Positions 3,794 through 40,653 of a stretch of 64,000 nt of DNA are shown here, piece after piece. The stretch is from a virus: IMG/VR virus record IMGVR_UViG_3300044618_001634, positions 1 through 64,000 of that record. The stretch is one strand, 5' to 3'. The stretch's first letter is position 1. Every line of letters starts with the position of its first letter. A program made the position numbers and the translations under genes. Under the pieces are notes generated by a model. That model ran no database searches and was not told the DNA's origin. It saw only the letters and a program-made list of their open reading frames with translations.

Positions 3794-3801
3794 TATTTAT
3801 C
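3794..3801 (-). promoter_or_regulatory. Late promoter GATAAATA
   Basis: T4-like late promoter on the minus strand upstream of the 215-residue gene, which starts at 3772. The leader carries AGGAG before the ATG. Confidence 0.7.
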
Positions 3802-5364: not shown

Positions 5365-5370
5365 TAAATA
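5363..5370 (+). promoter_or_regulatory. Late promoter ACTAAATA (leaderless type)
   Basis: Ends 6 nt before the ATG at 5377, with no Shine-Dalgarno site between, so the transcript should begin at about the start codon. Confidence 0.6.
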
Positions 5371-5376
5371 TCCGTA

Positions 5377-6180: not shown

Positions 6181-6868
6181 AATTATCTTTATTGCCTTTA
6201 CTTTTATAATGATTTAAGTAAGGACCTAAGATAGTATGTCGTAACGGTGTCTTGTATTTTTTCTTAAAATCAGCACACAAATCTCTCACGTGAGGTTTGA
6301 ATTCATTGGCTACGGCGCCAAACACTTCTCCGTCATAAAATCTTCGAAGGTTTTCAGTAATGTGCTCGTCGTAATATTGTCTATATCGTTGTGCAAATGC
6401 TTTAAATTCTGGGTGGGTACGATTTACAACAAATATACCTGTTTCGGCACTGATCCAGATGCGGTTATCCTTCTCGTGATATACTTCCATGTACGTGGCA
6501 AGAACATTGTCAGGGCATAACAATTCTAACATGCCCATTGAAATATCAGCAGTGGTTAATACATCTGCATCAAGCCAGATAACTCTATCTGCTGTGCTAT
6601 GTTCCATAGCATGTATAACGCTATATGCTTTCTTGGCAAAAGTCTTTACACGATCCTTGACCGGACTTAGTTGGAATTTAAAATAACTATCCCCTAGTTC
6701 TGTAAATTCAATTTGTTTAATTCTTGCTTGCTCCGGTAATCGAAACTCTTCTACATAACAAGTAAAAACAAGTTCAGACGGCCAATGTTTCAACCATGTT
6801 TCAACACATGCATGCCCTATTTTATCATAGTATGCTTGGTCAAAACTTGTAATTACTTCTATATTCAC
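6170..6868 (-). CDS. Glycosyltransferase, DxD (DADV) type
   Basis: 232 residues from a GTG at 6868 whose GTGA overlaps the stop of the upstream gene by 4 bases; the family-typical start VNIEVITSFDQAYYDKIG supports it. DxD site RVIWLDADVLTTADIS, then ETGIFVVNRTHPEFKAF and a NHYKSKGNK tail that resembles the H-F-K-G-K of the paralog at 8135. It is translationally coupled to the FkbM-like gene at 6865, so sugar transfer and methyl transfer may act on the same glycan. That coupling is inference from gene order. Confidence 0.72.
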   Translation of the reverse strand: MNIEVITSFDQAYYDKIGHACVETWLKHWPSELVFTCYVEEFRLPEQARIKQIEFTELGDSYFKFQLSPVKDRVKTFAKKAYSVIHAMEHSTADRVIWLDADVLTTADISMGMLELLCPDNVLATYMEVYHEKDNRIWISAETGIFVVNRTHPEFKAFAQRYRQYYDEHITENLRRFYDGEVFGAVANEFKPHVRDLCADFKKKYKTPLRHTILGPYLNHYKSKGNKDNFNY

Positions 6869-7482
6869 CGAAGACCTACGCCCATGCGTTCTTTCCATTG
6901 ATCAAATGTTATTTCAGGAAAGTCAATGTCGTTCTTAACAAACCATGTTTCAAATTGATAATCGGGTTGTTTACAATAGACATTACTAACTGCAACTTTG
7001 TACCCTTTGCTAGTCAGGTACTCACGTACAATAGGATCGTGATCGGGTATGTGTTGCATGCCAGGATTACCGTTGTCGTGTTCAAAAGTGATACAATCAA
7101 ATTCGATACCTTGTTCTATTACCCGTTGCAACGCTAACAAGGTGTTAGTTGGTGGTTCAATATCGCAACTTAAATAACTAATGTGTTTTGTTAGACCTTG
7201 TTTTTCAAGTTGAGCAACGTAATCAAAGGTAATAGCATTTTCCCAACAAATAGGATTGGTTCTTTCCGGACAGTCTGCCCAGGCCTTTTGCCATTTTTTG
7301 TTTAATTCAAGACTGAATCCCTTCCATCCTTTGTTTACTTCCAGAATGTAGGTATTGTTTTTATGTGCTGGCTTGTAAGCACCAATTTCTATATAGGTAG
7401 CATTATCGCCACCGATACTATATGCAAACCAATCCTGATAGGCTTGTCCACGAGTTTTTACATCTAAAGTTGGGAAGTTCAT
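6865..7482 (-). CDS. FkbM-like methyltransferase
   Basis: 205 residues. The N-terminal stretch with ATYIEIGAYKPAHKNNT, then NKGWKGFSLEL, matches the SAM-binding first and second strands of FkbM methyltransferases (EIGA..P..[NS]NT..LE..GWKG...E). LSCDIEPP corresponds to the acidic motif after strand 4. It is a clear paralog of the plus-strand gene at 8944. FkbM enzymes usually O-methylate sugars or small molecules. It overlaps both neighbours by 4 bases, so it belongs to a tight operon with transferases. Confidence 0.75.
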   Translation of the reverse strand: MNFPTLDVKTRGQAYQDWFAYSIGGDNATYIEIGAYKPAHKNNTYILEVNKGWKGFSLELNKKWQKAWADCPERTNPICWENAITFDYVAQLEKQGLTKHISYLSCDIEPPTNTLLALQRVIEQGIEFDCITFEHDNGNPGMQHIPDHDPIVREYLTSKGYKVAVSNVYCKQPDYQFETWFVKNDIDFPEITFDQWKERMGVGLR

Positions 7483-8138
7483 TGTGGTATTAAATCCTTT
7501 TGACGTTTACCACTATAGTGATAAAAGTAATCTAGTAAATCAGTATCTTCAAATCCTTGAGGTGATTTTTTTACACTCTTACTAAGATTGCGATGTGGTA
7601 GTTCTTTGACCGCATACCACAGGACATCGTTGTCCCATGGCCGATGTAGAGTATCTACTATTCCATTGTACCATGCTTCTTCGTAGACGTTAGTCCACGA
7701 TTCAAACAATGGGTGTTGTGTGTCTATAATAACAAACCCCGACTCGGCTTGTTTTAAGTTTCCACAAATAATTGTGGCTACTTGCCCTTCCTCAGGCATG
7801 AATCTTGATAGATTGGGTTTACTGTTTACCTTAACATCGCTGTCTAACCAAATTACATAACGTGTTTTTAAATTACGAATTGCCCACAGGAAACATTTAC
7901 CTTTGCGCCAGAACTTACCCTTTTTGCCGCCGCCTATTGAAAAGTGAGGATCATTAGGATCAGGATATGCTGGTGCGGCATCTATTACTTCTACTCCAGG
8001 ATAGGTAAATCCTGGCATGTTTTCGGCCATGACAATTTTAGGACCGTCTAGTAATTCCCACCCGGGCAAATTATATTTTGCCACACTGTCAAAATACGAT
8101 TGGCTGAAACTTGTAACCCAAGTTATATCATATGTCAT
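7479..8138 (-). CDS. Glycosyltransferase-like protein, DSD motif
   Basis: 219 residues, start MTYDITWVTSFSQSYFDSV. The site RYVIWLDSDVKVNSKP is a DxD-type metal site, followed by ESGFVIIDTQHPLFESW, which is the same E-[ST]-G-[FI] block seen in the other transferases here. The insert HFSIGGGKKGKFWRKGK is Gly- and Lys-rich and unlike its paralogs. It overlaps the gene upstream by an ATGA. The product is probably a GT-A transferase; the acceptor is not known. Confidence 0.65.
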   Translation of the reverse strand: MTYDITWVTSFSQSYFDSVAKYNLPGWELLDGPKIVMAENMPGFTYPGVEVIDAAPAYPDPNDPHFSIGGGKKGKFWRKGKCFLWAIRNLKTRYVIWLDSDVKVNSKPNLSRFMPEEGQVATIICGNLKQAESGFVIIDTQHPLFESWTNVYEEAWYNGIVDTLHRPWDNDVLWYAVKELPHRNLSKSVKKSPQGFEDTDLLDYFYHYSGKRQKDLIPQ

Positions 8139-8884
8139 GCAAGCACCTGACTAACATAATCTTTGATAGCAAACTGTTTGTATAACTCCTCAGCTTGACG
8201 TTTAATTTTACCTTTGAAATGCCCTACGTCATCGTTGACCATGCTACCGCGTATAGGAGTATTACCTTTTTGACGTAGATTCATTTCTGTAAATGTAATT
8301 CCTAATTTTTCACAATCTTTAACCACATGTCCGTGAACATTACTATCATAGAATCGACCCATGCCTTCCATACGATCGTTATCATAGTAATCTCTATAGA
8401 TACGAGCAAAGTCTTTGCGACCAGGATGTTTTAGATCAAATATAAAAAATCCACTTTCGACACAAAACTCTCCGCTGTCGTGTGTTACTCCAAGATGTGC
8501 CGATAAATTGTTGTTTAGTATTTTTCTAAAAAATGCTTCGTCAAGTGGACGTTTAATAAAAGCATCGGCATCTAACCAAAGCATAGTGTCGGCAGTGCCA
8601 TGTTCTGTGCCTTCTAAAACTGTATAACCTTTTTTAGCAAAACTAATAACTTTTTGCATGATCTTACCTTGCCATCGGTCTTCAAATTGTTTAAATCCGT
8701 TGTCGAGGCTGTACAGATCGACCAAGTTGATTCGAGGATTCAACTTGGGCCACTTATCATAGTCCTCTGTAGTAACAGTAATTTGTGTATCTGCTGGGAG
8801 AAACTTTAATGCACTAGCCAAGCTGTATTTGCCAATATCATTAAAATAATCAATGCTTTGTGATGTGTAAACGTGAATTGTCAT
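8135..8884 (-). CDS. Glycosyltransferase, DxD (DADA) type
   Basis: 249 residues, first gene of the minus-strand run 8884 to 6170. It has FAKKGYTVLEGTEHGTADT, then MLWLDADAFIKRP (DxD), VESGFFIFDLKHPGRKDF and the C-terminal VGHFKGKIKR. All of these align with the genes at 5377 and 6170. It is driven by a perfect TATAAATA late promoter (8911-8918) with AAAGG before the ATG. As the promoter-proximal gene it should be the best expressed of this set. Confidence 0.75.
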   Translation of the reverse strand: MTIHVYTSQSIDYFNDIGKYSLASALKFLPADTQITVTTEDYDKWPKLNPRINLVDLYSLDNGFKQFEDRWQGKIMQKVISFAKKGYTVLEGTEHGTADTMLWLDADAFIKRPLDEAFFRKILNNNLSAHLGVTHDSGEFCVESGFFIFDLKHPGRKDFARIYRDYYDNDRMEGMGRFYDSNVHGHVVKDCEKLGITFTEMNLRQKGNTPIRGSMVNDDVGHFKGKIKRQAEELYKQFAIKDYVSQVLA

Positions 8885-8909
8885 TTATAACCTTTTTAAT
8901 TAACTACCC

Positions 8910-8929
8910 ATATTTATAGTTATAAATAT
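8910..8929. promoter_or_regulatory. Back-to-back divergent late promoters in a palindrome
   Basis: Minus-strand TATAAATA (8911-8918) and plus-strand TATAAATA (8921-8928) face away from each other, separated by 2 bases. The arms ATATTTATA and TATAAATAT form a perfect inverted repeat. One serves the transferase at 8884, the other the methyltransferase at 8944. Both genes have Shine-Dalgarno-like sequences (AAAGG; AAGGAA). Confidence 0.8.
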
Positions 8930-8943
8930 CTGGCAAGGAAATC

Positions 8944-9564
8944 ATGACATTCTATTTTAACCAACTTAATACTGTGCTATTCAATAAATCTGCCGAAGCC
9001 AAGGTAGACCGTTTTGCTTACGGCTTATCTGGGGCCAATGGTACCTATATTGAAATAGGTGCCAGTAAACCAGTACAACGTAGCAACACCGTAGCATTAG
9101 AGCGTCAAGGATGGAAAGGGTTTGGGATCGAATTTGACCCTCGACTTCAACCACTATGGCCCGACTGTAGAACCAATCATATATATTGGGCTGATGCTAC
9201 TAAATTTGATTACATAGCAGCGGCCAAAGAACAAGGACTGCCTGATCGTATTAACTTTTTGCAAGTGGATATTGAGCCACCAGAAAATACGTTTGCCGCG
9301 CTTAAATTGGCTGTAGAATCAGGATTGACTTTTGATTTTATTGCGTTTGAACATGACGTGTATTGTCAAGATGTAGACTATAATGTAATTGCCACAGATT
9401 ACTTGTTAACTAAAGGTTACAAAGTTGCAGTTTACAATGTTTGCTCACAGCGTAAGCGTAACCCAGGAGTATGGAGCCACATAGAAACGTGGTATGTTAA
9501 AAATGACATACCCTTTGAAACTATGGAATTCTTTGATTGGAAAAAGAAATACAACGTACAATGA
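8944..9564 (+). CDS. FkbM-like methyltransferase, paralog of the 6865 gene
   Basis: 206 residues. The key blocks GTYIEIGASKPVQRSNT, RQGWKGFGIEFDP, NFLQVDIEPPENTF and FEHD repeat those of the minus-strand gene at 6865, including the end HIETWYVKNDIPFE. This shows a duplication with inversion, or separate capture from one family. The gene begins a three-gene plus-strand operon (methyltransferase, epimerase, dehydrogenase) with ATGA overlaps. That fits synthesis and decoration of an unusual sugar. Confidence 0.75.
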   Translation: MTFYFNQLNTVLFNKSAEAKVDRFAYGLSGANGTYIEIGASKPVQRSNTVALERQGWKGFGIEFDPRLQPLWPDCRTNHIYWADATKFDYIAAAKEQGLPDRINFLQVDIEPPENTFAALKLAVESGLTFDFIAFEHDVYCQDVDYNVIATDYLLTKGYKVAVYNVCSQRKRNPGVWSHIETWYVKNDIPFETMEFFDWKKKYNVQ

Positions 9565-10442
9565 AAAAAATATTAGTTACAGGTAGTAATGGATTTATTG
9601 GGCAACACCTGTGTCCGGCGCTGGATCAGTTAGGGCATAGTGTATATGCTGTTGATCGAACACTAGGCGGAGATTTATGCGATAAAGCATTTGTGGATGG
9701 ATTGCCGGATGTAGATATTGTGGTACATCTTGCCGCCCATAACGGTACAAAACATTTTTATAATCGGCCATTTGATGTTGTTCGAGACGGTGTGTTGCCA
9801 ACACAATATCTGTTAGAACGTTATGCTGGCAAAGTTAGTAGATTTGTGTTTACTGGAACTTGTGAAAGTTATGCCGGCGCTGTGGATTTGTTTAATTATC
9901 CAGTTCCCACAGATGAAAAGGTTCCCTTGGTCATTGGTGACGTAACTAACCCTCGCTGGAGTTACGGAGGCAGTAAGATTGTAAATGAAATCCAGGTTGT
10001 TGCTGCCAAAGAACAATTTGGTCAACGCTATTCAATTATACGATATCACAATGTATATGGGCCAGGCCAACAGGATCACTTTATTCCTGAATTTTATCAG
10101 CGGGCACTCACTGGTGATCTTACACTGTATGGCTGGGAAAATACTCGTAGCTTTATGTACATCAGTGATGCTATTGTTGCTACTATGCGTGTAATTCTGG
10201 AAGAATCGTTTACAAATGAAATTGTAAACATTGGCATTGATAACGAGATCAGTATTAAAGATTTAGCAGGAAAAATTCTAACAGTTGCTGGCATTGATGG
10301 AGAGTTGATATTAAAAGATGCTCCAGAAGGTTCAGTAAAACGTCGGTGTGCCGACGTATCAAAGTTTAATCGACTTACCTGGTTTGTGCCAAAAGTCGAG
10401 TTAGATGAAGGCATTAGATTAACATTAGAGAGTTTAAAATGA
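9561..10442 (+). CDS. NAD-dependent sugar epimerase/dehydratase
   Basis: 293 residues of the extended SDR family. The NAD-binding G8-x2-G11-x2-G14 is in ILVTGSNGFIGQHL; the DLC block, VVHLAAH, the T-G-T segment and the catalytic Y135-x3-K139 (SYGGSK) are all present. HNVYGPGQQDHFIPEF is the typical substrate-binding strand of UDP- or GDP-sugar epimerases and dehydratases. The start is the ATG at 9561, in an ATGA overlap with the methyltransferase. It probably converts a nucleotide sugar that the neighbouring transferases use. The precise reaction (4-epimerase or 4,6-dehydratase) cannot be fixed by eye. Confidence 0.82.
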   Translation: MKKILVTGSNGFIGQHLCPALDQLGHSVYAVDRTLGGDLCDKAFVDGLPDVDIVVHLAAHNGTKHFYNRPFDVVRDGVLPTQYLLERYAGKVSRFVFTGTCESYAGAVDLFNYPVPTDEKVPLVIGDVTNPRWSYGGSKIVNEIQVVAAKEQFGQRYSIIRYHNVYGPGQQDHFIPEFYQRALTGDLTLYGWENTRSFMYISDAIVATMRVILEESFTNEIVNIGIDNEISIKDLAGKILTVAGIDGELILKDAPEGSVKRRCADVSKFNRLTWFVPKVELDEGIRLTLESLK

Positions 10443-11233
10443 AAATAGGTGTAATTGGTTGGGGTGTTGTTGGAAGTGCATGCGGCGAAGGCTTTAAAAT
10501 GCTCGGACACGATGTTAAGATTCATGATTCTAAATTTAATACACTGATTAACGAAGTGCTCGATACCGAACTGGTATTTGTTTGTGTGCCAACGCCGCCT
10601 GGTCCTAACGGAGAGTGCGATCTTAGTATTGTGCATCAAACTATTCAGCACCTTATTGCCAATAATTATCAAGGTGTTATTGCGCTTAAATCAACCAGCG
10701 TACCAGGAACAACACAAAGTATTATTGATCAATACCCAGATCTTGACATTTGCTTTGTTCCAGAATTTTTACGTGAGCGTACTGCATTAGAGGATTTTGT
10801 TCGCAATCATGATTTGTTAGCAGTAGGTTGCCACACCGATCGTGCATGGCATCGTGTATGTGAAGCACACGACTGGTTGCCAAAAAATAAGGTACGCATG
10901 ACTCCAACTGAAGCTGAGATTCTTAAGTATTACAGTAATACATTTAATGCTGTGCGTATTGTATTTGCTAATGTCATGTATGAAATTTGTGAAAAGTTAG
11001 ACAGCGATTACGAAACTATTCTAAATACTTTCTTGTTGCGCAAAACTACAAGCCCAGATTATTTAAGTTGTGGTCCAGACATGCGCGGATACGGTGGCAT
11101 GTGTTTGCCCAAAGATACTAAGGCTATGGCTGACTTATGTAAAAGATTGGACTTACCGTTTGAATTATTTGATACTGTAGATCATGATAACAGTCAAGTC
11201 AAGCGTACAGTATTTCCTGGTATGCGTTTTTAA
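10439..11233 (+). CDS. Short UDP-glucose/GDP-mannose dehydrogenase-family protein
   Basis: 264 residues. NAD site G4-V-I-G7-W-G9-x2-G12, then VFVCVPTPPGPNG, the KSTSVPGTT strand, FVPEFLRE, the helix with K163 and N167 (EILKYYSNTFNA), and the catalytic Cys222 in GYGGMCLPKD. These are the canonical oxidising-site elements that turn a UDP-hexose into a uronic acid. Full-length family members have about 390-450 residues; this one stops soon after the catalytic Cys and lacks the C-terminal nucleotide-sugar-binding domain. It may work with a partner, or be a reduced enzyme. It overlaps the epimerase by ATGA and the convergent gene by 4 bases. Confidence 0.8.
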   Translation: MKIGVIGWGVVGSACGEGFKMLGHDVKIHDSKFNTLINEVLDTELVFVCVPTPPGPNGECDLSIVHQTIQHLIANNYQGVIALKSTSVPGTTQSIIDQYPDLDICFVPEFLRERTALEDFVRNHDLLAVGCHTDRAWHRVCEAHDWLPKNKVRMTPTEAEILKYYSNTFNAVRIVFANVMYEICEKLDSDYETILNTFLLRKTTSPDYLSCGPDMRGYGGMCLPKDTKAMADLCKRLDLPFELFDTVDHDNSQVKRTVFPGMRF

Positions 11234-12162
11234 ATAAACTCTCGCATGTGGCGCCAGCATGCACCCGATTGCAGTTCATTAAAATTCCAGTGGCTCATAG
11301 CCAGCCGTTCAACCCACTTTTGCCTATCTGGTAACAGTGGGTTTTCAATTTGTGTCAAATCAGTGTTGGCGATTTCAGCACACTGGCTTCGTGCTGGATC
11401 TGTAATAAAAACTGGCCACCCTTCGATTGCGGCACCTACTACTGGACTTGAATTGTGATTAACAACTGCCCAGCAATGTTTAAGGTCTTTGTTTAATGGT
11501 GGATTATCGATACTTATTTCAATCGATCCTAAACCTCTTTGATTACAAAGGTGTATAATTTCATTACAGTAACGGGGGCTTTGACGATCGCCCGGATGAG
11601 GACGTAATCGTATAGGTCTTTGTGTATGTTGTCTAAGTTTAGCAATAGTAGTTACCGCCCAATCAACTACACTGTATCCTCCCATCGACCATCCTCCGTT
11701 GCGTTGTAAACATAACAAAATATGATTTCCGGTGGGTCTATAATCTTTAAGGTGGATGCCCAGATCTTTACTAATTTGTTGCCACCTTGATGGTGTTGGT
11801 GTAGTATCACAATAGATACCAGTGTTTGGAAACACACCATTAAAACTATATCTAAGATAGTGTTGAGGATTTCCAGGAGTGGCATATAGAAATAAATTAC
11901 TATCAACCGCTACTACACGTCGGTTAGTTCGAATTTGTTCTTGTATTATTTGATTTCGCAAACGCAAATGAGGAGCTTCAGCAACATCTGCAATCCATCC
12001 TTGTATCACTGCTACGTCTGTAGAACGATATTGGTGATCTTCAACATCAATGACCTGTTCACCGAGTAATCTAGCACCCTCAGCAAAAAATTTCAGCAGA
12101 TTAACTTTTTCTGGATTCTTAGCGTTAGGAACTGTGCGATGATATACTGCCACTGATGTCAT
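11230..12162 (-). CDS. Capsule/KDO-type glycosyltransferase paralog 2
   Basis: 310 residues. The C-terminal half carries RLRPHPGD, then AVVNHNSSPVVGAAIEGWPV and IENPLLPDRQKWVERLAMSHW, matching the paralogs at 4519, 12159 and 13156. The N-terminal half includes VAVIQGWIADVAEAPHLRLR, a domain seen also in paralog 3. It resembles KpsC/KpsS-like transferases that build capsule linkers. It is the last gene of the long minus-strand run from uvsX, linked to its neighbour by ATGA. Confidence 0.65.
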   Translation of the reverse strand: MTSVAVYHRTVPNAKNPEKVNLLKFFAEGARLLGEQVIDVEDHQYRSTDVAVIQGWIADVAEAPHLRLRNQIIQEQIRTNRRVVAVDSNLFLYATPGNPQHYLRYSFNGVFPNTGIYCDTTPTPSRWQQISKDLGIHLKDYRPTGNHILLCLQRNGGWSMGGYSVVDWAVTTIAKLRQHTQRPIRLRPHPGDRQSPRYCNEIIHLCNQRGLGSIEISIDNPPLNKDLKHCWAVVNHNSSPVVGAAIEGWPVFITDPARSQCAEIANTDLTQIENPLLPDRQKWVERLAMSHWNFNELQSGACWRHMREFI

Positions 12163-13166
12163 TTTTTTGCAGTTTCAATTACAGGCAATAATGCCAACCA
12201 TGCTTCGCCGGTGTACATTTCATCTAGTGTCCATTGGCATAGTGCTAATTGTTCAAGCCATACATTAACCTCTGCAGGATCGGACATTTTTATATCTTCA
12301 ATTTCTTTAACAAAATTAGTACTAATACTCCAGGCAAAATTTCCAGTATCGCATGCTACTGTAGGTATACCGGCTATGATACTATCAATGGCTAAACCAC
12401 TAGTATATGTTACTGTACAATATGCATCAGCAAGGTCATCTGCCCAGGCCACTTCGGCACCATCGCTAAATTTGATGTTGGAGATCCCTTCTAATAATAT
12501 TTTACGGGCAAGTTCTTCATGATCTCCAAATGCTCGCATGCTTGCTAGTGGATGATTTCGTACTACGATTGGACGATCGCTTACTTTTCGTATGTCTCGT
12601 ATGGTTCGGAATGCCCAATCATTGATATCAGTCCCTCGCAAACTGGCATCGCCCGGCAACTGCAATGCCAGTACTATGTGTCCGTCAATATTATTTTGCC
12701 AGCCGGACCACTCAATCCCTAAATCGTCTAATCTTGTTTTGCCTCGAGCTGAATCTAGATCTGGCCAACTGGCGCTTTGATTTAAAAATCCATTCACACC
12801 TACTCTCCAGTGTGTATTCTCGTTTGAAGTTTTGCGCCCTAGTAATGGAGTTTCGATACAAACGAAACACTTAGAATTTTGTGCAACACTATTGCGTACT
12901 AAATGATGTCCTTTTTCTCTTGGCTTCCAACTTCCAGACATCACAGCAACATCGCACGGAGTGTAATTTTCACTATATTCATACTCTAAAGTATTAACAA
13001 CATCAGCCTGCACGTTTGCCCATCGTCCAATCCTTACAATATCTTTAAAACGATCTTCTTCGGGCAAATTTTCTTGAATCCATTTATCGATTCCTGCTCC
13101 AAAATTTTGCAGTAATTCTCGTTCCAGGTAACTGTTAGCTGTTGCCATAAAAATTTTAATGTTCAT
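12159..13166 (-). CDS. Capsule/KDO-type glycosyltransferase paralog 3
   Basis: 335 residues, the longest of the four paralogs. It has DVAVMSGSWKPREKGHHLVR in the N-terminal domain (compare paralog 2), then PIVVRNHPLA, CTVTYTSGLAIDSIIAGIPT and the tail LCQWTLDEMYTGEAWLALL. In the N-S-x6-A loop the Asn is Thr (YTSG), which may alter donor binding. It overlaps its neighbour at 13156 by 11 bases. Confidence 0.62.
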   Translation of the reverse strand: MNIKIFMATANSYLERELLQNFGAGIDKWIQENLPEEDRFKDIVRIGRWANVQADVVNTLEYEYSENYTPCDVAVMSGSWKPREKGHHLVRNSVAQNSKCFVCIETPLLGRKTSNENTHWRVGVNGFLNQSASWPDLDSARGKTRLDDLGIEWSGWQNNIDGHIVLALQLPGDASLRGTDINDWAFRTIRDIRKVSDRPIVVRNHPLASMRAFGDHEELARKILLEGISNIKFSDGAEVAWADDLADAYCTVTYTSGLAIDSIIAGIPTVACDTGNFAWSISTNFVKEIEDIKMSDPAEVNVWLEQLALCQWTLDEMYTGEAWLALLPVIETAKK

Positions 13167-13947
13167 TTATTATCCTGTATGCTGTGCCATTTTTTAATTC
13201 ACTTATGTGAAACTGACCGTAGGCCAAATGGCAGGCCCAGGCATATAACTTATCGCTGTCGGCGTAGTAAGGTGTTTCAATTTGTGCAAGGTCTTTGCAA
13301 GCTACCGGATCTGCGGCATTTGGGGCTACTGTAAACACAGGTATGCCGTGCAATATACTTTCGGTTGCGGCTATTGTATTATAAGCTACCACCGCAAATA
13401 CATCATTATCAAGTGCCTGCTCAAACGTGTTAACAAGAACACGATTTCCACGCTTTCCTGGTTTTGATCTAATTTCTACCGGGCGGTCTGTGTGCTGTGC
13501 CAATGTGTTTAAAATAGTATCGATCCATTGCTCAGTATCAATGCCATAAAATTTGGCGGGCTTTTCGCCTGGTGGAAGAACTAATATTTTACGACCACTT
13601 TTTTTCCAGGGCGGTATAATACGATTGTGTTTCAGCCATCGATCGTCTGGGCGTGATATAATTTCTGTGTGTTGTAAATTATTTTTTGCTATACGATGCC
13701 ATAGCTTATATCCTCGAGGATTGGTTGAATTAACTTCGTTGCCAAAATATCCAGTATCCATATAATAAAATGTGCGTCCATCATTCCAGCATTGTTTCAT
13801 TATTTTATGCTTCAAAATACCACGTAACACAATTGGCTCTCGACTGTGATTATATACAAAATCGTCTGTATTAGTCGGCGATACATGTGCCCCAGCGGCA
13901 AGCATATTCATATACTTGTCTGTTCCACCTTTACTAAGAAATATCAT
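13156..13947 (-). CDS. Capsule/KDO-type glycosyltransferase paralog 4
   Basis: 263 residues. Family blocks: PVEIRSKPGKRG (the His of RxHP replaced by Lys), AVVAYNTIAATESILHGIPV, LAQIETPYYADSDKLYAW and the tail YGQFHISELKNGTAYR. The N-terminal domain is shorter than in paralogs 2 and 3. The changed RxHP loop suggests either a different specificity or loss of activity. ATGA overlap with the methyltransferase upstream. Confidence 0.58.
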   Translation of the reverse strand: MIFLSKGGTDKYMNMLAAGAHVSPTNTDDFVYNHSREPIVLRGILKHKIMKQCWNDGRTFYYMDTGYFGNEVNSTNPRGYKLWHRIAKNNLQHTEIISRPDDRWLKHNRIIPPWKKSGRKILVLPPGEKPAKFYGIDTEQWIDTILNTLAQHTDRPVEIRSKPGKRGNRVLVNTFEQALDNDVFAVVAYNTIAATESILHGIPVFTVAPNAADPVACKDLAQIETPYYADSDKLYAWACHLAYGQFHISELKNGTAYRIINEH

Positions 13948-14516
13948 TTCAACTTTATCTCTGCTTTTATGTATTTTGGACGTCGATCTATTACTTCCAC
14001 AATATCAAAACATTGTTCGTGTGCAGTCCTTGGACGTATATCCATAATAATTTTGGTATTCTCGTGACTATGTTTCCTAATTAAATCTTGGTAAGTGTCA
14101 ACTGGATAGTGATATCCGCAAGACAGATAACTACAAATTAAATCAAATTTTGTATCTTCTGGAATATCAATCTTGGTGGCATCAACAAATCGATATTTTA
14201 AATCAGTGTGTTGATCAAAATATTCTTTTAATTTTTCAATCGGATTATAAAATTTCATTGTTTCAGCAGGGCCGTAACGAACTAACCGATCGCTTCTAGA
14301 TGGACTATTAGAAAAATCACCATCTAATAACCATACATTAGATTTTGACTGTTGATAAAACTGTTGAGATTCAAAAGCAAATCCACACCCTATGTCAAGT
14401 ATAGACTCAGGCGCTGATCCTAAATATCCGGAGATAGATTTAAACGATTGTGTTTTTTCTTTGATATAATCAGGTAACAACCAGCCCTGTAACCATTTGT
14501 CATGATTATCAAGCAT
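13944..14516 (-). CDS. Class I SAM-dependent methyltransferase
   Basis: 190 residues with the SAM motif ESILDIGCGFAFESQQF (about 37-53), a second-strand acidic residue in VWLLDGDFSN, and FDLICSYLSCGYHYPVD as motif IV/post-IV. Small size suits a small-molecule or sugar methyltransferase. It lies between a GT-A transferase (one-base TAATG overlap) and the capsule-type paralogs, so it likely acts on the same product. The substrate is unknown. Confidence 0.75.
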   Translation of the reverse strand: MLDNHDKWLQGWLLPDYIKEKTQSFKSISGYLGSAPESILDIGCGFAFESQQFYQQSKSNVWLLDGDFSNSPSRSDRLVRYGPAETMKFYNPIEKLKEYFDQHTDLKYRFVDATKIDIPEDTKFDLICSYLSCGYHYPVDTYQDLIRKHSHENTKIIMDIRPRTAHEQCFDIVEVIDRRPKYIKAEIKLK

Positions 14517-15199
14517 TACTGACTACGCTGTAAGCAATAATCTGTAAGCATACGCTCACGATGCCATTCGTCACCCATTGGTGTTGTGGCAAATTCTGTA
14601 AAGCAAGGTGTGCCTAGCGTATAATGCAACAGCTTGGCATCCGGATTTGGGCCATACTCGTCTGGTAACCAGTTCCACTCTCGAGGTAATTCACCAATGC
14701 GCTCATCATCGATCCAACTAAAACGATGCAGGTATGCGCCTGTACTGTTTTCAATAAATTCTGGAGTTAATTTTCTATTAGGATGGTTATTGCAATTCCA
14801 AAGAATAACGCTGGACCAATTCTTCCGCGGATAATCTTCATTCTTACTACCAAGATATTTTTCTGTCATCTTGGTTTTGTAATCATGTTTGACTACCATG
14901 ACATCTGTGTGACTTTCACGCAAGTCCCAAAGTTTAGTAATGTCGTCTCTAACAATCATGTCTCCATCGATAAAAATTGCCCAGCCCTGGTAACTCATTA
15001 GATGCGGCACCAAGAAACGACTGTAGATAAAGTGATTACTGCCGTCGGTGTGTGTTTCTGTGTAGTCTTTAAACAAGTTAAGTGCCAACGGCATAATTGC
15101 CACTGGGCGGCTAGCATGCCTAATAATACTGTTCGCACACACATGGAATGCAATTGCTTCGCGAGGATCGTACCCGATAAAAATTGGAATTGGTGTCAT
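14516..15199 (-). CDS. Glycosyltransferase, DGD motif
   Basis: 227 residues from the ATG at 15199, starting MTPIPIFIGYDPREAIAFHV. IGYDPREAIAFHVCANSI is the typical N terminus of a GT-A family often found in phages and proteobacteria. The DxD-like site is WAIFIDGDMIVRDDI. LLHYTLGTPCF near the end holds the conserved His of the donor site. A longer upstream reading exists but would overlap UvsY, so the start just after the uvsY stop was chosen. Confidence 0.78.
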   Translation of the reverse strand: MTPIPIFIGYDPREAIAFHVCANSIIRHASRPVAIMPLALNLFKDYTETHTDGSNHFIYSRFLVPHLMSYQGWAIFIDGDMIVRDDITKLWDLRESHTDVMVVKHDYKTKMTEKYLGSKNEDYPRKNWSSVILWNCNNHPNRKLTPEFIENSTGAYLHRFSWIDDERIGELPREWNWLPDEYGPNPDAKLLHYTLGTPCFTEFATTPMGDEWHRERMLTDYCLQRSQ

Positions 15200-15201
15200 G
15201 T

Positions 15202-15913: not shown

Positions 15914-16975
15914 TTATTCCTCCGTTACAGTGTCTTCAGTACTACTTACCGTTTCTTTCTGATTATTGAAGTCAGTCATAACTTTGTCTAAGCAACCGGC
16001 CTCGTTGGATTCCCACTTTTTACGGAACTGTTTGATAATCTCACCATCGCTAGTAACAAACACTAGGCTGTTGCCTTCTTTCTTGAGTAGGCCACGTTTC
16101 TCTGCCAAGTCTACCATGCCAGAATATGGATTCATACCTGTTTCGTACGGAATCTTAACCTGCATGCCTTCAAAGGGTTTGGCATAACGAGTTTTCATTA
16201 CTTTACAACCAGCACGGATACCCATAACTTCCGAGATCTTGTTGCCATCTTCATCTTCTTTCAGTTTCATTTTCTTCATAGCAACCACAATACTGCTTGC
16301 ATAGATAAAGCCTTGTCCACCTGAGATTTTGTCGTCTGGGTCAAACATGTCCTGGCTTGCGTATGTGTGATTTGTACATACCATGCCCACATTGTAACTA
16401 CCAAACATGTTGACTGAGTTCCGAACTAGACTTGTAAGTGCCTTAGGTTTACGGCCCATGTCACCCTTCATATCGCCTGCTTCAAATTGATTAACGTCGG
16501 TTGGAGTCAACAACATACCCAAAGAATCAATTACAAACAGGACCTTTATACGCTCACCATCGGGTAAGGCTTTGTAGTCGGTCATAAATGTTGAGATTGT
16601 TTTAGCAACATCATCAATCATGGCCATATTAAGTTTAAGCAATTTATCTTCGCCGGTATCAACACCTAACGCATGTAACCATGCTTCATCAAGTGCATTT
16701 TCTGTATCAATTAAGATAACAAAAATGCCTTGTTCTTGTGCATTTTTAACAATGTTACCACTACAGATATATGATTTACCAGCACCAGATTCTCCAGCAA
16801 ACACTGTGACCTTGCCGAGTGGAATACCTTTGTTAAAGTCCCCAGAGATCAAATAATTTAAAGCAAAGTTACCTGTGCTGATCCAATCAGTCGGGTCGTT
16901 AAATCCAATACTAAGACCATCAATGCTCTTAGTGATTTCCTTACGGAACTTGCTTACGTCAAATGGCTTTCCCAT
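15914..16975 (-). CDS. uvsX: UvsX, RecA-like strand-exchange recombinase
   Basis: 353 residues. Walker A is GESGAGKS (61-68), Walker B VLFVIDS (145-151), and the MAW-like segment DTENALDEAWL, DNA loop region (DVNQFEAGDMKGDMGRKPKA) and KISGGQGFIYAS are all conserved with T4 UvsX and cyanophage homologs. UvsX forms the presynaptic filament for recombination-dependent replication. The ATG at 16975 is preceded by AAGAAGGAA. It is followed by the small acidic gene and uvsY in one operon, while a radical SAM gene lies just upstream (stop at 16977). Confidence 0.95.
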   Translation of the reverse strand: MGKPFDVSKFRKEITKSIDGLSIGFNDPTDWISTGNFALNYLISGDFNKGIPLGKVTVFAGESGAGKSYICSGNIVKNAQEQGIFVILIDTENALDEAWLHALGVDTGEDKLLKLNMAMIDDVAKTISTFMTDYKALPDGERIKVLFVIDSLGMLLTPTDVNQFEAGDMKGDMGRKPKALTSLVRNSVNMFGSYNVGMVCTNHTYASQDMFDPDDKISGGQGFIYASSIVVAMKKMKLKEDEDGNKISEVMGIRAGCKVMKTRYAKPFEGMQVKIPYETGMNPYSGMVDLAEKRGLLKKEGNSLVFVTSDGEIIKQFRKKWESNEAGCLDKVMTDFNNQKETVSSTEDTVTEE

Positions 16976-16976
16976 G

Positions 16977-18119
16977 TTAATTTCCTTCTTTAAGTTTATA
17001 TAATTCTTTAAAAATCTTACTGCTGCCTACACCACGTCGCTGGTCCATTATTGCTAATTTTTCAAAGGAACTGTTTAGATCCTTTGCAAATGGTTGTTGA
17101 ATATAGTATAACATATTCCGATAGCTATCTTCAAGCAAATATCCTGGTTTACCTGAAATTAGATGTTCTAATTTATGCTCTAGTAATTGTAACACACTTT
17201 TTGGCAAATGTCTAATGTTTAGGTATTCTGGAGTTAGTAATGCTCCAATTACAAAACTATTTGGGTGAAAACCTTGTTTTCTCAAAAATGCAACACAATC
17301 AAACACAGAATTGTAATTTAACAAAAACCAAAGCATGTTAAAAGATATCTTGTGCCCAAGATCCTGAATACGTTGTAGATTATCCAAAAAGTCTTGCCAC
17401 TCTCCACCAAATCGTATGTAGTTAAATTCTTGATCCATACTTTCAACACTTATGGTCCAGTGTACATTTTGAAATTCACAGATACGTTCGAACACTTGAG
17501 TATTAGTCTTACTGAGATTTGTGTTGACTCTAAGATTTACTCTGGGATTTTTTTCCAACAACAAATCCAATAGTTCTAAATTTTGTTTCATCAGCAAGGG
17601 CTCACCGCCGGCTAGATACACATGTTTAAGATTGTCGGCATGATCAAAAATATATTTTTTAAACTGTTCAAACTTGCCTAGGTCGGGCTGTTGTATGTTG
17701 ACGTCTAGTTCATCTGCCCAGCGACTACTGAATATTGGTGTGCAATACACGCAGGCAAAATTACACAGATTAGTCCAGCGAACATCAATGGATTGAAGAT
17801 TGTGGTATCCAGTTTGATCATATATAGTTGGATCTGTACGTTTGAGTTCTCTAATATAAAACACACGATCGCTTATTATTTCAAATCCACGTTTGTTTTG
17901 TTCGATATCCTTGCAAGGTCGGCAACTATTCACAGGTTGTTGTTGCTGTATTTGTGACTGTCTATTGGCATTAGTGTCGCCAGTAAGTATTTGTTCTATT
18001 GTTTGCTCTTGTATGTTACCCAGTGGAGTACTACTGCGAATGCAATTTTTAACTGTGCCATCAAAGTTATACATCAACCCAGTCCATGGCATAGGACAAA
18101 ACTGTGTATTAGTCAGCAT
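16977..18119 (-). CDS. Radical SAM protein with N-terminal twitch domain (1)
   Basis: 380 residues from the ATG at 18119. The radical SAM motif C119-x3-C123-x2-C126 is in LCNFACVYCTP, and GGEPLL follows. The N-terminal region has a separate Cys set, C8, C26 and C66-x2-C69 (FCPMPWTG... KNC... CRPCKD), which fits the N-terminal twitch/SPASM-like auxiliary cluster of a radical SAM type known from phages. Such enzymes modify peptides or small molecules. Two bases separate the stop codon from the uvsX start, so it is co-transcribed with recombination genes. The substrate is unknown. Confidence 0.78.
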   Translation of the reverse strand: MLTNTQFCPMPWTGLMYNFDGTVKNCIRSSTPLGNIQEQTIEQILTGDTNANRQSQIQQQQPVNSCRPCKDIEQNKRGFEIISDRVFYIRELKRTDPTIYDQTGYHNLQSIDVRWTNLCNFACVYCTPIFSSRWADELDVNIQQPDLGKFEQFKKYIFDHADNLKHVYLAGGEPLLMKQNLELLDLLLEKNPRVNLRVNTNLSKTNTQVFERICEFQNVHWTISVESMDQEFNYIRFGGEWQDFLDNLQRIQDLGHKISFNMLWFLLNYNSVFDCVAFLRKQGFHPNSFVIGALLTPEYLNIRHLPKSVLQLLEHKLEHLISGKPGYLLEDSYRNMLYYIQQPFAKDLNSSFEKLAIMDQRRGVGSSKIFKELYKLKEGN

Positions 18120-18130
18120 GTCCTTGGGAG

Positions 18131-18664
18131 TCACAGTGGCCCTAAACTTATGTCTGGTATGCAAAGACCATTGGCTTCGGCCATGTTTAATATAGATACT
18201 AGTGTTGCGGCCCATGTGGTAGGATTTGCAGATGACGGCACAGTTTTATCTGCGCTGGTTGCTATGTCACCGGGCCTAACCAATGTAATACGAATACCCA
18301 ACCGTCGATGTCTAATCTGTTGAACTGCTTGTTCTAACGATAGTTTTTGTATGCGGTATTGATCCATGTCCAGACCCGGCAAACTGCTGACCGGTTGCTG
18401 AGTCATCATGGTAGAAATAACCACAATATGTTTTCCTGTGCTGGTCCATCGCTTGGCCATTTCAAACAATAATTCAGTTTGCGAGTATCCGGCTTGTGCA
18501 TTGTTGATAAACATATCGCACGGTTCAATCTGGTCACAGATTTTAGGAATGTTGCGTATGTTATTACCATCACGGCGACTAAGGCCAACAACTTCGTGAC
18601 TGGCATACGCACAAGACAATGCTTGTCCTATACCTGCGGTGTGTCCGGTAATGGCTATCTTCAC
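18131..18664 (-). CDS. Short-chain dehydrogenase/reductase
   Basis: 177 residues. NAD(P) motif ITGHTAGIGQAL near the N terminus, the NNAQAG strand, a Ser in VVISTMM and Y-x3-K in YRIQK, which together are the classical SDR catalytic set. It is short for the family (about 250), lacking much of the C-terminal substrate lid. It sits between two radical SAM genes with a 4-base overlap to one, so it may reduce or oxidise an intermediate of the same pathway. Confidence 0.75.
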   Translation of the reverse strand: MKIAITGHTAGIGQALSCAYASHEVVGLSRRDGNNIRNIPKICDQIEPCDMFINNAQAGYSQTELLFEMAKRWTSTGKHIVVISTMMTQQPVSSLPGLDMDQYRIQKLSLEQAVQQIRHRRLGIRITLVRPGDIATSADKTVPSSANPTTWAATLVSILNMAEANGLCIPDISLGPL

Positions 18665-19578
18665 TCAATTCCTCGCAATTGTTTTTGTTTGCGTATGTAT
18701 GCTTGAGCAGACTCTGGATTGTTATTATCAACCGACAGCTCAGGCGGATCTTTTAAATAAGCATACGAATGATCAATTCCATGTTCTTTTGCGAATGCTT
18801 GTATATTTGGCAAGTCACCAACATTCAGTACACTAACAGTGGTCCACAGATTCAAATCTACAGGCATGGTCCGATAAATCATTAGATTGCGATAAAAATC
18901 TTCCCACCGGATGGGCCAACGAACTAAATCATGCACATCACCAATGCCATCGCAACTGACTGTGACTGTGACTTTGATCCCACGAGCGGCTATTTCAGTC
19001 AATTCAGTTAGAACAGTGTTGCAATTGGTGTTGAGTCTTAAAGTTTTTACATTGGGTGGCAGATTGGCTAGAATGTGTCGATAGTTTTTACTGTAACTTG
19101 GTTCTCCGCCGTTGATATCAAGATGCACTATGCGTTCTTGCGGAAGTTGCCAAAATTGTTCACTGTTGTTAACTGTCTGTGTGATTTCACCGGGACGCCA
19201 ATCTGATTCAGCATATTGTTTGTATACCAAACTAGCAATAAAACTACTGTGTTCCTTGTTACAAGTCATACAAGCACTGTTGCAAACATTATCCAAGACA
19301 CCGCCCACTTGTAGATAATTTGCTTGTTCGGTAGACTTGTCTAATTCAATTGCGTGTTGACGTATGCTGATATTGCCTTGTTGTTCAACTTCTTGACAAC
19401 GAACACATTCAATAGGCCATTGGTCGAAAGACATAAGTTCTTTGGTGTTGGCCAGCCACGAACTAGATTCCATTTCTGTCAGGGTTGAAAATTGTCTTGC
19501 TTGAACCATGTGACCACAACGGCTTACGGTGCCGTTGGTATTGAAACGAACAAAGTGGTCTAGTCTAGGACAGCGCAT
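18661..19578 (-). CDS. Radical SAM protein with N-terminal twitch domain (2)
   Basis: 305 residues. C99-x3-C103-x2-C106 (VCNSACMTCNKEH) binds the catalytic cluster; NGGEPSYSK is the GGE motif. N-terminal Cys residues C3, C21, C58 and C61 repeat the auxiliary-cluster spacing seen in the gene at 16977, so the two are distant paralogs. The start follows the sulfotransferase-like gene with an overlap of 19 bases. Function is unknown; pairs of such enzymes suggest successive steps on one substrate. Confidence 0.75.
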   Translation of the reverse strand: MRCPRLDHFVRFNTNGTVSRCGHMVQARQFSTLTEMESSSWLANTKELMSFDQWPIECVRCQEVEQQGNISIRQHAIELDKSTEQANYLQVGGVLDNVCNSACMTCNKEHSSFIASLVYKQYAESDWRPGEITQTVNNSEQFWQLPQERIVHLDINGGEPSYSKNYRHILANLPPNVKTLRLNTNCNTVLTELTEIAARGIKVTVTVSCDGIGDVHDLVRWPIRWEDFYRNLMIYRTMPVDLNLWTTVSVLNVGDLPNIQAFAKEHGIDHSYAYLKDPPELSVDNNNPESAQAYIRKQKQLRGIE

Positions 19579-20174
19579 AGATCGTTAACTCTTTGTATTG
19601 TTTCTTCATACAACACTGGGTAGGATGTGTGTATGTGTGCAATGATATCTTTAAACTTTACAGTCTGTCCAATAAAAGTATCTATTAGTATTTTGTCTAA
19701 CTTTAAATAAAACCAAAGTCGATCATTTTCCTGGAAATGTTTTATTAACTGTTCGTCTCGGGCAATAGCATTCCAGGTTAGTTCGGTGGTTAAGCCCATG
19801 TCCGATAGTGGTCTTAGCGTAATACTAGCAGATGTGTATCTGGCTAAATTTACAAGCCAATGAAACTGTAAAGCAAAATGTCGGTTTAAAAATAAAAACT
19901 GATCAATCATACTTAAGACTGTGGCACGATCTTGTGCAAGATCTAATTGACTCAAATATGTTTGTACGCCACTAACATAACGTTCGTATGGATCTCGAAT
20001 AAAAACTTCAACAGTGTCAAGTGCGGCCACTTCGTCTAAAGACAATTGTCTGAAACCAGATTTGCGCAGGCTACTGCTACCATTTTTGAATATGTTGTAG
20101 ACATAACGACCAGGCGCTACTTCTAGCACCTCGCATTCGTCTGGAAAGATAATAGGATCTATGTATCCGAGCAT
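19560..20174 (-). CDS. Sulfotransferase-like protein
   Basis: 204 residues. KNGSSSLRK (30-38) fits the 5'-phosphosulfate-binding loop of PAPS-dependent sulfotransferases, and FIRDPYERYVSGV (58-70) fits the 3'-phosphate-binding R-D-P-x-E-R-x-x-S block. Histidines in RHFALQFHWL could supply the catalytic base. The family transfers sulfate to sugars. The ATG at 20174 lies just after the hairpin that follows gene 32, with no Shine-Dalgarno site close by. Assignment rests on two motifs, so moderate confidence. Confidence 0.6.
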   Translation of the reverse strand: MLGYIDPIIFPDECEVLEVAPGRYVYNIFKNGSSSLRKSGFRQLSLDEVAALDTVEVFIRDPYERYVSGVQTYLSQLDLAQDRATVLSMIDQFLFLNRHFALQFHWLVNLARYTSASITLRPLSDMGLTTELTWNAIARDEQLIKHFQENDRLWFYLKLDKILIDTFIGQTVKFKDIIAHIHTSYPVLYEETIQRVNDLCAVLD

Positions 20175-20180
20175 AGAGAA

Positions 20181-20204
20181 AGTGGGGGAGTTTCCTCCCC
20201 CACT
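20181..20204 (-). terminator. Strong GC hairpin after gene 32
   Basis: Perfect 10-bp stem AGTGGGGGAG / CTCCCCCACT with a GAAA tetraloop on the minus strand, 10 bases past the gp32 stop. The tail TTTCTCTAT is only moderately U-rich, so it may be an attenuator that lets some transcription reach the sulfotransferase gene 7 bases further on. Confidence 0.75.
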
Positions 20205-20214: not shown

Positions 20215-21204
20215 TTACTGCTTTTGACGGCTACGAATCATAGCCAAAATGTCTTCAGTTTTTTGTGAAGCTGGTTTTGCTTCGATCGGCGCCGATGCTA
20301 CAGGAACCGACGCTTCATCTTCATCATCAAAACTGCTGGTTGGTGCTGGAGCGGCTTTGGTCATTGGTGCTGGAGCATCTTCAGTAGCGGCCGGAGCACT
20401 AGAACCAGCTGGAGCCGACACACCTGCTGGGCGGAAGTACTGACCCCAACGTTCTGTGTCATAGCTTTGACCATCAACACTTGCTTCAAACATTTCTTTG
20501 ATTACTTTAACTTCTGCCTCAGTTGGTTTCTTTGGCAAGAATGTTGAAAGATCAAACAAGCCGTGTTCAGCAACTGCTGCTTGTTCAGCTTCATCAAGTG
20601 CAGTTTCTTTACGAGCCCACTTACTTGTGCTGTAGTCAGCAAAGCCACCTTTGGCTGTTTTACTAATACGGAAGTCTAAACCACGCAGATAATCTGTTGG
20701 CAATTCTTCCAATTCTGGATCCATCAATGCGGACTTGATAGTAGCAAAAATTTGAGGACCAATAATAAAGCGACGGATTGGATTGGCCGGAGCCTTGTCG
20801 TCACCGATTGGGTTTTCACGTACAAATCCTTGGAAAATGTAACTACGCTTCTTCCAATACTTACGACCCATTTCTTCTAGACTCTTGTCTTTGAACCAAC
20901 CGCGTACTTCGGTTAGTACTGGGCAAGTTTCTTGCCACATTTCCATACAAGGAACTTGTACATAAACTTGTTTTGAATCTGCTTCACCCTTGATGCCGTT
21001 AAACGGTAAACGAATCATCTGGCGTTCTTGCCAAAAGAATGTGTTTTTTGTGTTACCATCTGGTAAAAAACGGAGTGTTGTGGATTGTCCTTCTTCCATG
21101 TTCCAGTGTGGATAAATTGCATTATCACCACCTGTGGAACTATTACCGCCTTGTTTTGATTCGCTAGCGGCCAGACGAGCGCGAATTTCTGATAATGATG
21201 CCAT
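20215..21204 (-). CDS. gp32: gp32-like single-stranded DNA-binding protein
   Basis: 329 residues. The N-terminal LAST-like region (MASLSEIRARLAASES), the core with YPHWNMEEGQSTTLRFLPDG and FFWQERQMIRLPFNGI, and the zinc-region Cys pair (PCMEMWQETCPVL) match T4-like gp32. The C terminus has an Ala/Pro-rich linker, an acidic FDDEDE segment, and a basic end (MIRSRQKQ). It coats replication and recombination intermediates and recruits UvsY. T4 gene 32 is 301 residues; the extra length lies in the linker. Confidence 0.92.
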   Translation of the reverse strand: MASLSEIRARLAASESKQGGNSSTGGDNAIYPHWNMEEGQSTTLRFLPDGNTKNTFFWQERQMIRLPFNGIKGEADSKQVYVQVPCMEMWQETCPVLTEVRGWFKDKSLEEMGRKYWKKRSYIFQGFVRENPIGDDKAPANPIRRFIIGPQIFATIKSALMDPELEELPTDYLRGLDFRISKTAKGGFADYSTSKWARKETALDEAEQAAVAEHGLFDLSTFLPKKPTEAEVKVIKEMFEASVDGQSYDTERWGQYFRPAGVSAPAGSSAPAATEDAPAPMTKAAPAPTSSFDDEDEASVPVASAPIEAKPASQKTEDILAMIRSRQKQ

Positions 21205-39786: not shown

Positions 39787-40653
39787 TCACTTGCCTTTGC
39801 GTATAGCCCATATTTTTTTATAATTGCTTTGTTCGGGGCAAAATTTACACATTGGTATAGGATTATCAATTTCGTCCATAAACTGGTCTAGACGGATTGC
39901 TAACTCATCACTGCCCAGTGGGCGATAACTGTATAAAAGTTTGCGATCTTCTGCTGTTATTGCCAGCGGATGCTGTTGGTCAAACTCGGGCAACAGAGTT
40001 GACGGCCCACATTTATACATTTTGCCACGTATGAAATGATAGTTTTTCCAATGCACAAATCCACAATTGCTGTGAGCTTTTAACGGATCACTATTGTGTA
40101 GGGTCAACTCGCCTGCGGCATTGCGTTTTATACTGCTTTGATAAAACTCAGTTTGATTCCACACTGCTACCTTAATCCTGTTGGAATCTTCATAGTACCA
40201 ATCGGCATTGTAAATGTTATTTTCTTTGCCGTGCATCTCTTTCACTGGAGCACGTACAAAGTTTTCTATCTGCTCAAATATTTCGCGATTGTCTTCATCG
40301 TTATGTAAACTAACACCTATCCAAATTCTTCTATTTTTAATTTTTTCGTATAGGTCTTTGACATGGGTTAGCCTTGTGCCGTTGGTTAAAATCTGTACTG
40401 TTGCAGTAGGCCACAAAGCATTCAAGCCCAGTGCCCAGTCAACTATGGTTGGATTTAGTAACGGTTCACCACCAAGGATAACAATGTGTTCAAAGTCAAC
40501 ATACTTTGCCCATTCCGTGTAGTCGTCCTTGTAGTCGTTCCATGCTTGCCATCCTTTGAAGTTATAATCATTAAATCGATTACAGTTTTCACAGGTTAAG
40601 TTGCAAACATTGGTTATGTAAAATTCACCCTTGGATATTACTCGACGAGACAT
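39787..40653 (-). CDS. Radical SAM protein (3)
   Basis: 288 residues. C17-x3-C21-x2-C24 (VCNLTCENCNRF) and ILGGEPLLNP give the radical SAM core. C-terminal Cys residues (CGFVHW, YKCGPS, MCKFC) look like a SPASM-type auxiliary cluster. Unlike the other two radical SAM proteins here, the auxiliary Cys are after the core rather than before it. It lies between gp13 and the 380-residue gene and is on the same strand. No precursor peptide gene is obvious next to it. Confidence 0.75.
   Translation of the reverse strand: MSRRVISKGEFYITNVCNLTCENCNRFNDYNFKGWQAWNDYKDDYTEWAKYVDFEHIVILGGEPLLNPTIVDWALGLNALWPTATVQILTNGTRLTHVKDLYEKIKNRRIWIGVSLHNDEDNREIFEQIENFVRAPVKEMHGKENNIYNADWYYEDSNRIKVAVWNQTEFYQSSIKRNAAGELTLHNSDPLKAHSNCGFVHWKNYHFIRGKMYKCGPSTLLPEFDQQHPLAITAEDRKLLYSYRPLGSDELAIRLDQFMDEIDNPIPMCKFCPEQSNYKKIWAIRKGK

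Follow-up and report, generated by a model that had tools for sequence, protein, structure and literature searches.

A four-gene radical SAM, dehydrogenase and sulfotransferase-like cassette in a gp32-uvsX insertion hotspot of jumbo T4-like phages

Why would a phage carry four enzyme genes between two genes of DNA replication and recombination, and do their products act together? The question is raised by a 64,000-nucleotide stretch of a virus genome (positions 1 to 64,000 of IMG/VR record IMGVR_UViG_3300044618_001634, which has 64,298 bases in full), referred to here as the window. On its minus strand the transcription order is a gp32-like single-stranded DNA-binding protein gene (20215..21204), ST, encoding a sulfotransferase-like protein (19560..20174, 204 amino acids), rB, encoding a short N-terminal-twitch radical S-adenosylmethionine (SAM) protein (18661..19578, 305 amino acids), SDR, encoding a compact classical short-chain dehydrogenase/reductase (18131..18664, 177 amino acids, GTG start), rA, encoding a long N-terminal-twitch radical SAM protein (16977..18134, about 385 amino acids), and a gene for a UvsX-like recombinase, assigned by homology (15914..16975). 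The gp32-like gene is named from homologues annotated as single strand DNA binding proteins in phages Atu_ph07, GAP32 and Vibrio phage 2.275.O. The four genes between these borders are co-oriented and tightly packed, and all four of the adjacent or overlapping open reading frames (ORFs) that a sequence-only reading had placed here are present. The answer we favour, tentatively and with a little less than even confidence, is that they are an operon in a hotspot of an uncultured clade of jumbo T4-like phages and that their enzymes jointly modify one small acceptor.

If the four genes occurred independently in relatives, a shared role would be hard to maintain, as the sequence-only reading had itself noted. 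We therefore counted them in 196 non-identical gp32-uvsX intervals, pooling loci fetched with the cassette genes and loci from a scan with uvsX, and deduplicating only those identical including a 300-bp flank. At least one of the four genes was found in 121 of these intervals and all four in 111 of the 121; within the uvsX-only scan the corresponding figure was 11 of 13, so independent occurrence is largely absent. The ten partial intervals contained ST-rB (4), rB-SDR-rA (3), ST-rB-rA (1), ST-rB-SDR with a truncated SDR (1) and rA alone (1). Among loci fetched with cassette genes, a set biased by its query and drawn from the best 80 of 540 SDR relatives and the best 80 of 157 rA relatives, the order gp32-ST-rB-SDR-rA-uvsX is nearly invariant. 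A profile of ST found one strong copy per record in all 17 records scanned and a profile of SDR did so in 16 of 17, with one weak extra match each in record G003, while a divergent ST used as query retrieved two loci with an identical protein in both.

The way in which the genes are joined is also conserved. In 60 dereplicated cassettes, with starts defined by motif, ST and rB overlap by 14-20 bp in 59, rB and SDR by 4 bp in 45, and SDR and rA by 4 bp in 48. The ORF of rA is open from 18215 in the window, which would give an overlap of 85 bp with SDR; this was rejected, since relatives start rA at the equivalent of the GTG at 18134, leaving 4 bp. From these relatives and the prevalence of the 4-bp junction, GTG 18134 is the most likely translation start of rA. 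Median ratios of nonsynonymous to synonymous substitution (dN/dS), computed only from sequence pairs below saturation, were 0.085 for rA, 0.12 for rB, 0.13 for SDR and 0.33 for ST, next to 0.063 for uvsX and 0.13 for gp32, showing at the level of codon comparison that purifying selection maintains the cassette genes. Order, junctions and active sites are thus retained in relatives at mean amino-acid divergences of 34-57%, which puts the association of the four genes far beyond chance. Pairwise distances over 61 dereplicated loci give correlations (rho) of 0.77 for SDR-rA, 0.67 for rB-rA, 0.67 for rB-SDR, 0.42 for ST-rA and 0.31 for ST-rB, with flank values of 0.81 for gp32-uvsX and 0.51 for rA-uvsX. 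These correlations indicate that rB, SDR and rA travel together and that ST is the most exchangeable or the fastest-evolving member. Taken together, comparison of the loci shows the four genes to behave as one operon carried as a swappable cassette.

What the cassette is swapped against became apparent when the locus was sampled without reference to its contents. We scanned with uvsX alone and took the best 80 loci, of which 62 had the whole interval readable and 18 were dropped. Eleven of the 62 intervals contained all four genes, 2 contained ST-rB, 17 were empty (56-74 bp) and 32 held other genes, so that 49 of the 62 lacked any cassette gene. The idea that the cassette is a universal fixture of the clade was accordingly abandoned: the loci that suggested it had been fetched by cassette genes, and in the uvsX-only scan it is a minority allele. 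On a quick UvsX tree of these 62 loci, the window and 7 outgroup rows, the 12 rows with a full cassette (11 plus the window) require 12 changes, compared to a shuffled mean of 11.4, and thus do not cluster. Two loci, L260 and L261, have identical UvsX proteins and different interval contents; at the DNA level they are 89-93% alike as far as the end of gp32 and once more from the start of uvsX, the homology ending at the gene borders. By these comparisons the gp32-uvsX interval is an insertion hotspot whose contents are exchanged among near relatives. The placement is not a fixed element of a recombination module, and expression during replication, which the sequence-only reading took it to ensure, is a prediction.

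The alternative contents are diverse. The 54 proteins (from ORFs of more than 240 bp) encoded in the 32 intervals with other genes form 20 families under single-linkage clustering. The commonest is a family of 261-316 amino acids at 15 loci (e.g. L256:936-1775 and L302:6083-6991), two tested members of which had no Pfam or PHROG match. Among the other families are an Asp/Asn hydroxylase, an AMP-binding enzyme, a GDSL-type hydrolase (below its cut-off) and a radical SAM protein 25% like rC, the separate radical SAM protein of the window described below. By eye, proteins resembling amidinotransferases are encoded in alleles L277, L291 and L294; the one that was tested had no family match.

The identities given to the four products in the sequence-only reading, namely two twitch-type radical SAM enzymes, a short SDR and a PAPS (3'-phosphoadenosine 5'-phosphosulfate) sulfotransferase-like protein, are borne out by motifs, profiles and predicted folds. 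rA scores above the cut-offs of Pfam Radical_SAM (62.8 bits) and SPASM (32.7 bits), and passes the NCBIfam model NF033640 (twitch domain-containing radical SAM protein, N_Twi_rSAM) with 237.1 bits against a cut-off of 170. The shorter rB aligns over most of this model (residues 11-300 on positions 13-335 of 398) at 144.4 bits; as this is under the curated cut-off, we treat rB as a divergent relative of NF033640 and not as a member. The name of the model gives no function. In 26 aligned sequences each, the radical SAM motif CxxxCxxC is invariant in both proteins, as are C13, C31, C71 and C74 of rA and C3, C21, C58 and C61 of rB, and these four non-motif cysteines are available in each protein as putative ligands of an auxiliary [4Fe-4S] cluster. 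The predicted structure of rB (pLDDT 91) matches NifB (Z 12.3), MoaA, SkfB, viperin and other radical SAM enzymes with Z scores of 12.3-9.4. The rA profile matches solved structures of SkfB and NifB (6y1x) and, through its twitch region, BtrN: the twitch of rA is N-terminal (residues 11-85) and matches residues 167-247 of BtrN (E 7e-4), the overall similarity being remote. By the invariant motif, the Pfam match for rA and the predicted fold for rB, both proteins can be placed in the radical SAM superfamily. The relatives that rA has in bacteria are distant, at 22-30% identity, and come mostly from Bdellovibrionota, where by eye further radical SAM genes are present in the neighbourhoods.

In the SDR the GxxxGxG and YxxxK motifs (Y103/K107) are invariant and S84 and N54-N55 nearly invariant among 26 aligned sequences, and its profile matches solved SDRs. 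Family scores are below cut-off (17.5 bits against 26.6 for adh_short, 20 against 20.9 for Epimerase), and for lack of a domain match above a curated cut-off the SDR-like label is based on motif and profile. A second SDR accompanies a divergent rA at loci L163 and L185; this pairing was rejected as a rule, as the divergent rA of L080 is accompanied by a single ordinary SDR. For ST, the AlphaFold2 model (pLDDT 88) gave 29 best VIA-align rows that were all sulfotransferases, the best being a human 3-O-sulfotransferase (Z 6.2, rmsd 4.8 over 144 aligned residues; 3-O-sulfotransferases Z 5.3-6.2), and a comparison with BFVD retrieved A0A6J7WGY4, 'Sulfotransferase family', at TM 0.94 and 60% identity. 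ST shares with the PAPS-dependent glycan 3-O-sulfotransferases a conserved lysine loop and an RDPxxR motif; R60, R65 and H99 are invariant and K30/N31 nearly invariant in 28 aligned sequences, all of them putative functional residues. Those enzymes have about 260 residues, compared to 204 in ST, and ST has no sequence-level match to solved sulfotransferases: its profile retrieved none from PDB sequences, and a plain Foldseek search of the PDB gave nothing at E < 0.001, with a best relevant probability of 0.30. Modelling thus assigns ST a PAPS sulfotransferase fold, and sulfate transfer is a prediction from it. All four products look catalytically competent, judged by their conserved residues.

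What could such a set of enzymes make? A joint biosynthetic step, called plausible in the sequence-only reading, remains so, and it is likely that the enzymes form a joint pathway with sulfation as its last step. The available text of PMC9012708 describes BtrN as oxidizing an aminocyclitol with an auxiliary cluster held by four cysteine ligands, and groups this twitch enzyme with the SPASM enzymes PqqE and SuiB as catalysts of two-electron oxidations in which the auxiliary cluster is likely to be the electron acceptor, which is not the case for the twitch enzyme MoaA. With four non-motif cysteines each, like BtrN and unlike MoaA with its three ligands, rA and rB are, as far as that text goes, best read as oxidases. 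Using SAM and an auxiliary [4Fe-4S] cluster, they would carry out a BtrN-type oxidation of an alcohol to a ketone. The tight coupling of SDR to rA would make it the natural reductase for that ketone: reduction of the new carbonyl with NAD(P)H would yield a net epimerization or deoxygenation. In a last step, ST would transfer sulfate from host-made PAPS to a hydroxyl or amine of the product. The acceptor is probably a sugar, an amino sugar or a surface or virion glycan, because the nearest sulfotransferases act on glycans, because the matched twitch enzyme BtrN acts, in the text available, on an aminocyclitol, and because genes for a GT8 protein, an epimerase and a UDP-sugar dehydrogenase are present in an island downstream of uvsX. 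An altered surface or virion glycan might pay off in competition with other phages or in escape from host recognition, and such alteration would account for contents being swapped even at identical UvsX. We infer every chemical step, substrate and benefit in this scheme. A further-reaching version, which we regard as doubtful, is that the gp32-uvsX slot is a chemistry-swapping locus that exchanges whole biosynthetic programmes, the present allele encoding an unprecedented pathway from a host sugar or metabolite to a sulfated product that gives an edge over rivals.

Several observations weigh against joint modification of a glycan. ST has no match in Pfam, PHROG or NCBIfam, which is why we call it sulfotransferase-like, and its structural score lies under 8, the value that would be safe alone. 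PAPS would have to be supplied by the host, given that an APS (adenosine 5'-phosphosulfate) kinase model matched in only 1 of the 17 records, which may be fragments, and there barely (G002, 22.1 bits against a cut-off of 21.1); a phage-encoded supply was rejected on this result. By E-value, the rA profile has its best match among solved structures in SkfB, a peptide maturase, and not in BtrN, and SPASM/twitch enzymes often have peptide substrates. Most of the alternative contents tested at the site have no known function, so the glycan theme for the site draws on few genes. Finally, ST tracks the other cassette genes loosely, and at three loci (L089, L134 and L139) the genes ahead of SDR-rA are another upstream gene and one for another rB-like protein. 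The loose correlation of ST, together with the 4 intervals that have ST-rB and lack SDR-rA, suggests that the four genes may consist of two separable pairs, and with rA found alone once and SDR-rA correlating so much better than ST-rB, the slot might hold two independent modules, ST-rB and SDR-rA, with no common substrate. We think this unlikely, because complete sets predominate so strongly among the intervals, the rB-SDR junction is about as tight as that of SDR and rA, and distances of rB and rA also correlate well.

The remaining explanations differ in what they take the enzymes to act on, if on anything in common. Were the genes ordinary cargo, unrelated auxiliary genes that had gathered at a site tolerant of insertions and brought no shared advantage, one would expect what the site indeed displays, many unrelated genes, and N_Twi radical SAM genes are found at other sites in these phages too; the conservation of order, junctions and active sites over such divergence, and the low dN/dS of the cassette genes, make this quite unlikely. 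Very unlikely is the maturation of a peptide or protein by the twitch/SPASM enzymes with sulfation among the steps. The SPASM match of rA, its relation to SkfB and the many peptide maturases among NCBIfam near-matches speak for it, yet rA and rB each have one set of four non-motif cysteines, as in BtrN, and the SPASM cysteine set is larger. Nor does the operon offer the precursor peptide gene that the sequence-only reading had proposed to look for: its genes overlap or abut, and the largest gap in the gp32-to-uvsX interval is 40 bp and is occupied by a hairpin. A precursor gene in the interval, as expected of a cluster for ribosomally synthesized and post-translationally modified peptides, was therefore rejected; the rest of the genome was not searched for one. 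The least probable of the explanations, modification of nucleotides or DNA during replication, would fit the position between replication and recombination genes and the activity of some radical SAM enzymes on nucleotides or nucleic acids, MoaA and viperin being among the fold neighbours of rB. However, gp32 and uvsX simply flank a hotspot in which many other genes occur, and phages with near-identical UvsX lack the cassette, an absence for which a genome-wide base modification would be expected to exact a cost.

Exchangeable radical SAM genes in phages have precedents. The available text of PMC2853527 reports 11 and 12 radical SAM proteins in the Campylobacter phages CP220 and CPt10, distant T4 relatives, and an exchangeable module of 10-12 genes that includes five radical SAM genes and a putative glycine amidinotransferase gene. 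As described there, these phages and that of the window are alike in being T4-related and in exchanging a radical SAM block as a unit between near relatives. They differ in that the block here has four genes, including SDR and a sulfotransferase-like gene, lies at gp32-uvsX and belongs to a jumbo-phage group; because no amidinotransferase is among the four, the cassette is, on the published portion available, a variant and not a member of the Campylobacter phage module. Near relatives among pelagimyophages likewise differ in the radical SAM cassettes added to a variable region with many glycan genes, in the accessible part of PMC7029224; that region is a host recognition cluster of the structural region, whereas here a single gp32-uvsX slot is involved. 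T4-like phages are thus already known to exchange radical SAM genes as a module, and this gene set, slot and clade are not described in the searchable text: in open-licence PMC literature we found neither this four-gene cassette nor a gp32-uvsX hotspot, nor a function for the N_Twi radical SAM proteins of these phages. With its help, N-terminal-twitch radical SAM proteins could be assigned an activity for the first time. The cassette is a short, clearly bounded operon in which all members are recognizable enzymes, in phages with up to 12 N_Twi proteins per record; phages with and without it that have near-identical flanks are a natural experiment. The locus also shows that a replication-gene junction in jumbo phages acts as a fast exchange site.

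As to the phage itself, its large terminase is nearest to those of phages of the Pseudomonas phage PA5oct type (51%), and its UvsX to those of Sinorhizobium phage Phosso and Agrobacterium phage Atu_ph07 (67-68%), followed by the GAP32/CBB types. By these relationships it is a member of a jumbo T4-like group and not of T4 proper. Annotations of Phosso, Atu_ph07, GAP32 and Vibrio phage 2.275.O show no feature separating the gp32-like gene from uvsX, and PA5oct has two hypothetical proteins there; rA, rB and ST had no match in 50,697 named phage records. In 27 of 29 Phosso-like environmental loci both border genes were present, with no cassette genes between them in any, and the gap was less than 200 bp in 24 and 282-457 bp in 3. 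Two Phosso-like loci, L333 and L339, have in this gap a protein that by eye is GroES-like, from which it appears that the slot is used beyond the cassette clade.

A third radical SAM gene, rC (39787..40653, minus strand), had been noted in the window. Family scans confirm it as a radical SAM protein and separate it from the cassette family, with 17.6-18.4 bits to NF033640; as a different family unlinked to the cassette, rC was rejected as a pathway partner. Distant rC homologues occur inside the gp32-uvsX hotspot at L277 (25% identity) and directly before uvsX at L276. N_Twi proteins over the cut-off are numerous in some records, with 12 in G001 (145 kb), 10 in G004 (340 kb) and 3 each in G002 and G003; no tRNA genes were found in G000-G003. 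Five of the N_Twi radical SAM genes of G001 form a block at 13.8-23 kb (L210, L211) near genes for a DegT aminotransferase and a carbamoyltransferase and, by eye, a protein resembling an amidinotransferase, and others adjoin genes that by eye are gp46/gp47 and UvsW. In G001, a neighbour of one radical SAM gene encodes a protein whose relatives in Bdellovibrionota contigs are likewise adjacent or close to radical SAM genes (E 4e-51 to L244); it has no Pfam match and by eye the look of a glycosyltransferase.

The island downstream of uvsX in the window (3125-15200) is a variable region between uvsY-like and uvsW-like genes. Its contents include GT8, NAD epimerase and UDP-sugar dehydrogenase genes and a weak methyltransferase match, and at 11230, 12159, 13156 and 4519 mutually related proteins without a known family.

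The hairpin between gp32 and ST (20181..20204, minus strand) has 10 pairs, 7 of them G-C. Each of the 14 empty alleles viewed, out of 17, has a strong GC-rich hairpin after gp32 (L257, L259, L265, L267, L271, L278, L284, L288, L295, L298, L304, L307, L311 and L319), as does the window before ST, the sequence varying and the stem being kept, as for a conserved terminator or attenuator. In 28 of 60 cassette alleles the gp32-ST gap is only 3 bp, and the hairpin is hence missing there. A promoter scan returned 20 sites, compared to 17.4 expected, and terminator-like sites numbered 5, compared to 5.3 expected. A second insertion site is seen in many loci (e.g. L085, L092 and L113) at the equivalents of window positions 15654-15202, where the stretch from a small acidic gene after uvsX to a gene that by position is uvsY either contains an N_Twi radical SAM gene or lacks it.

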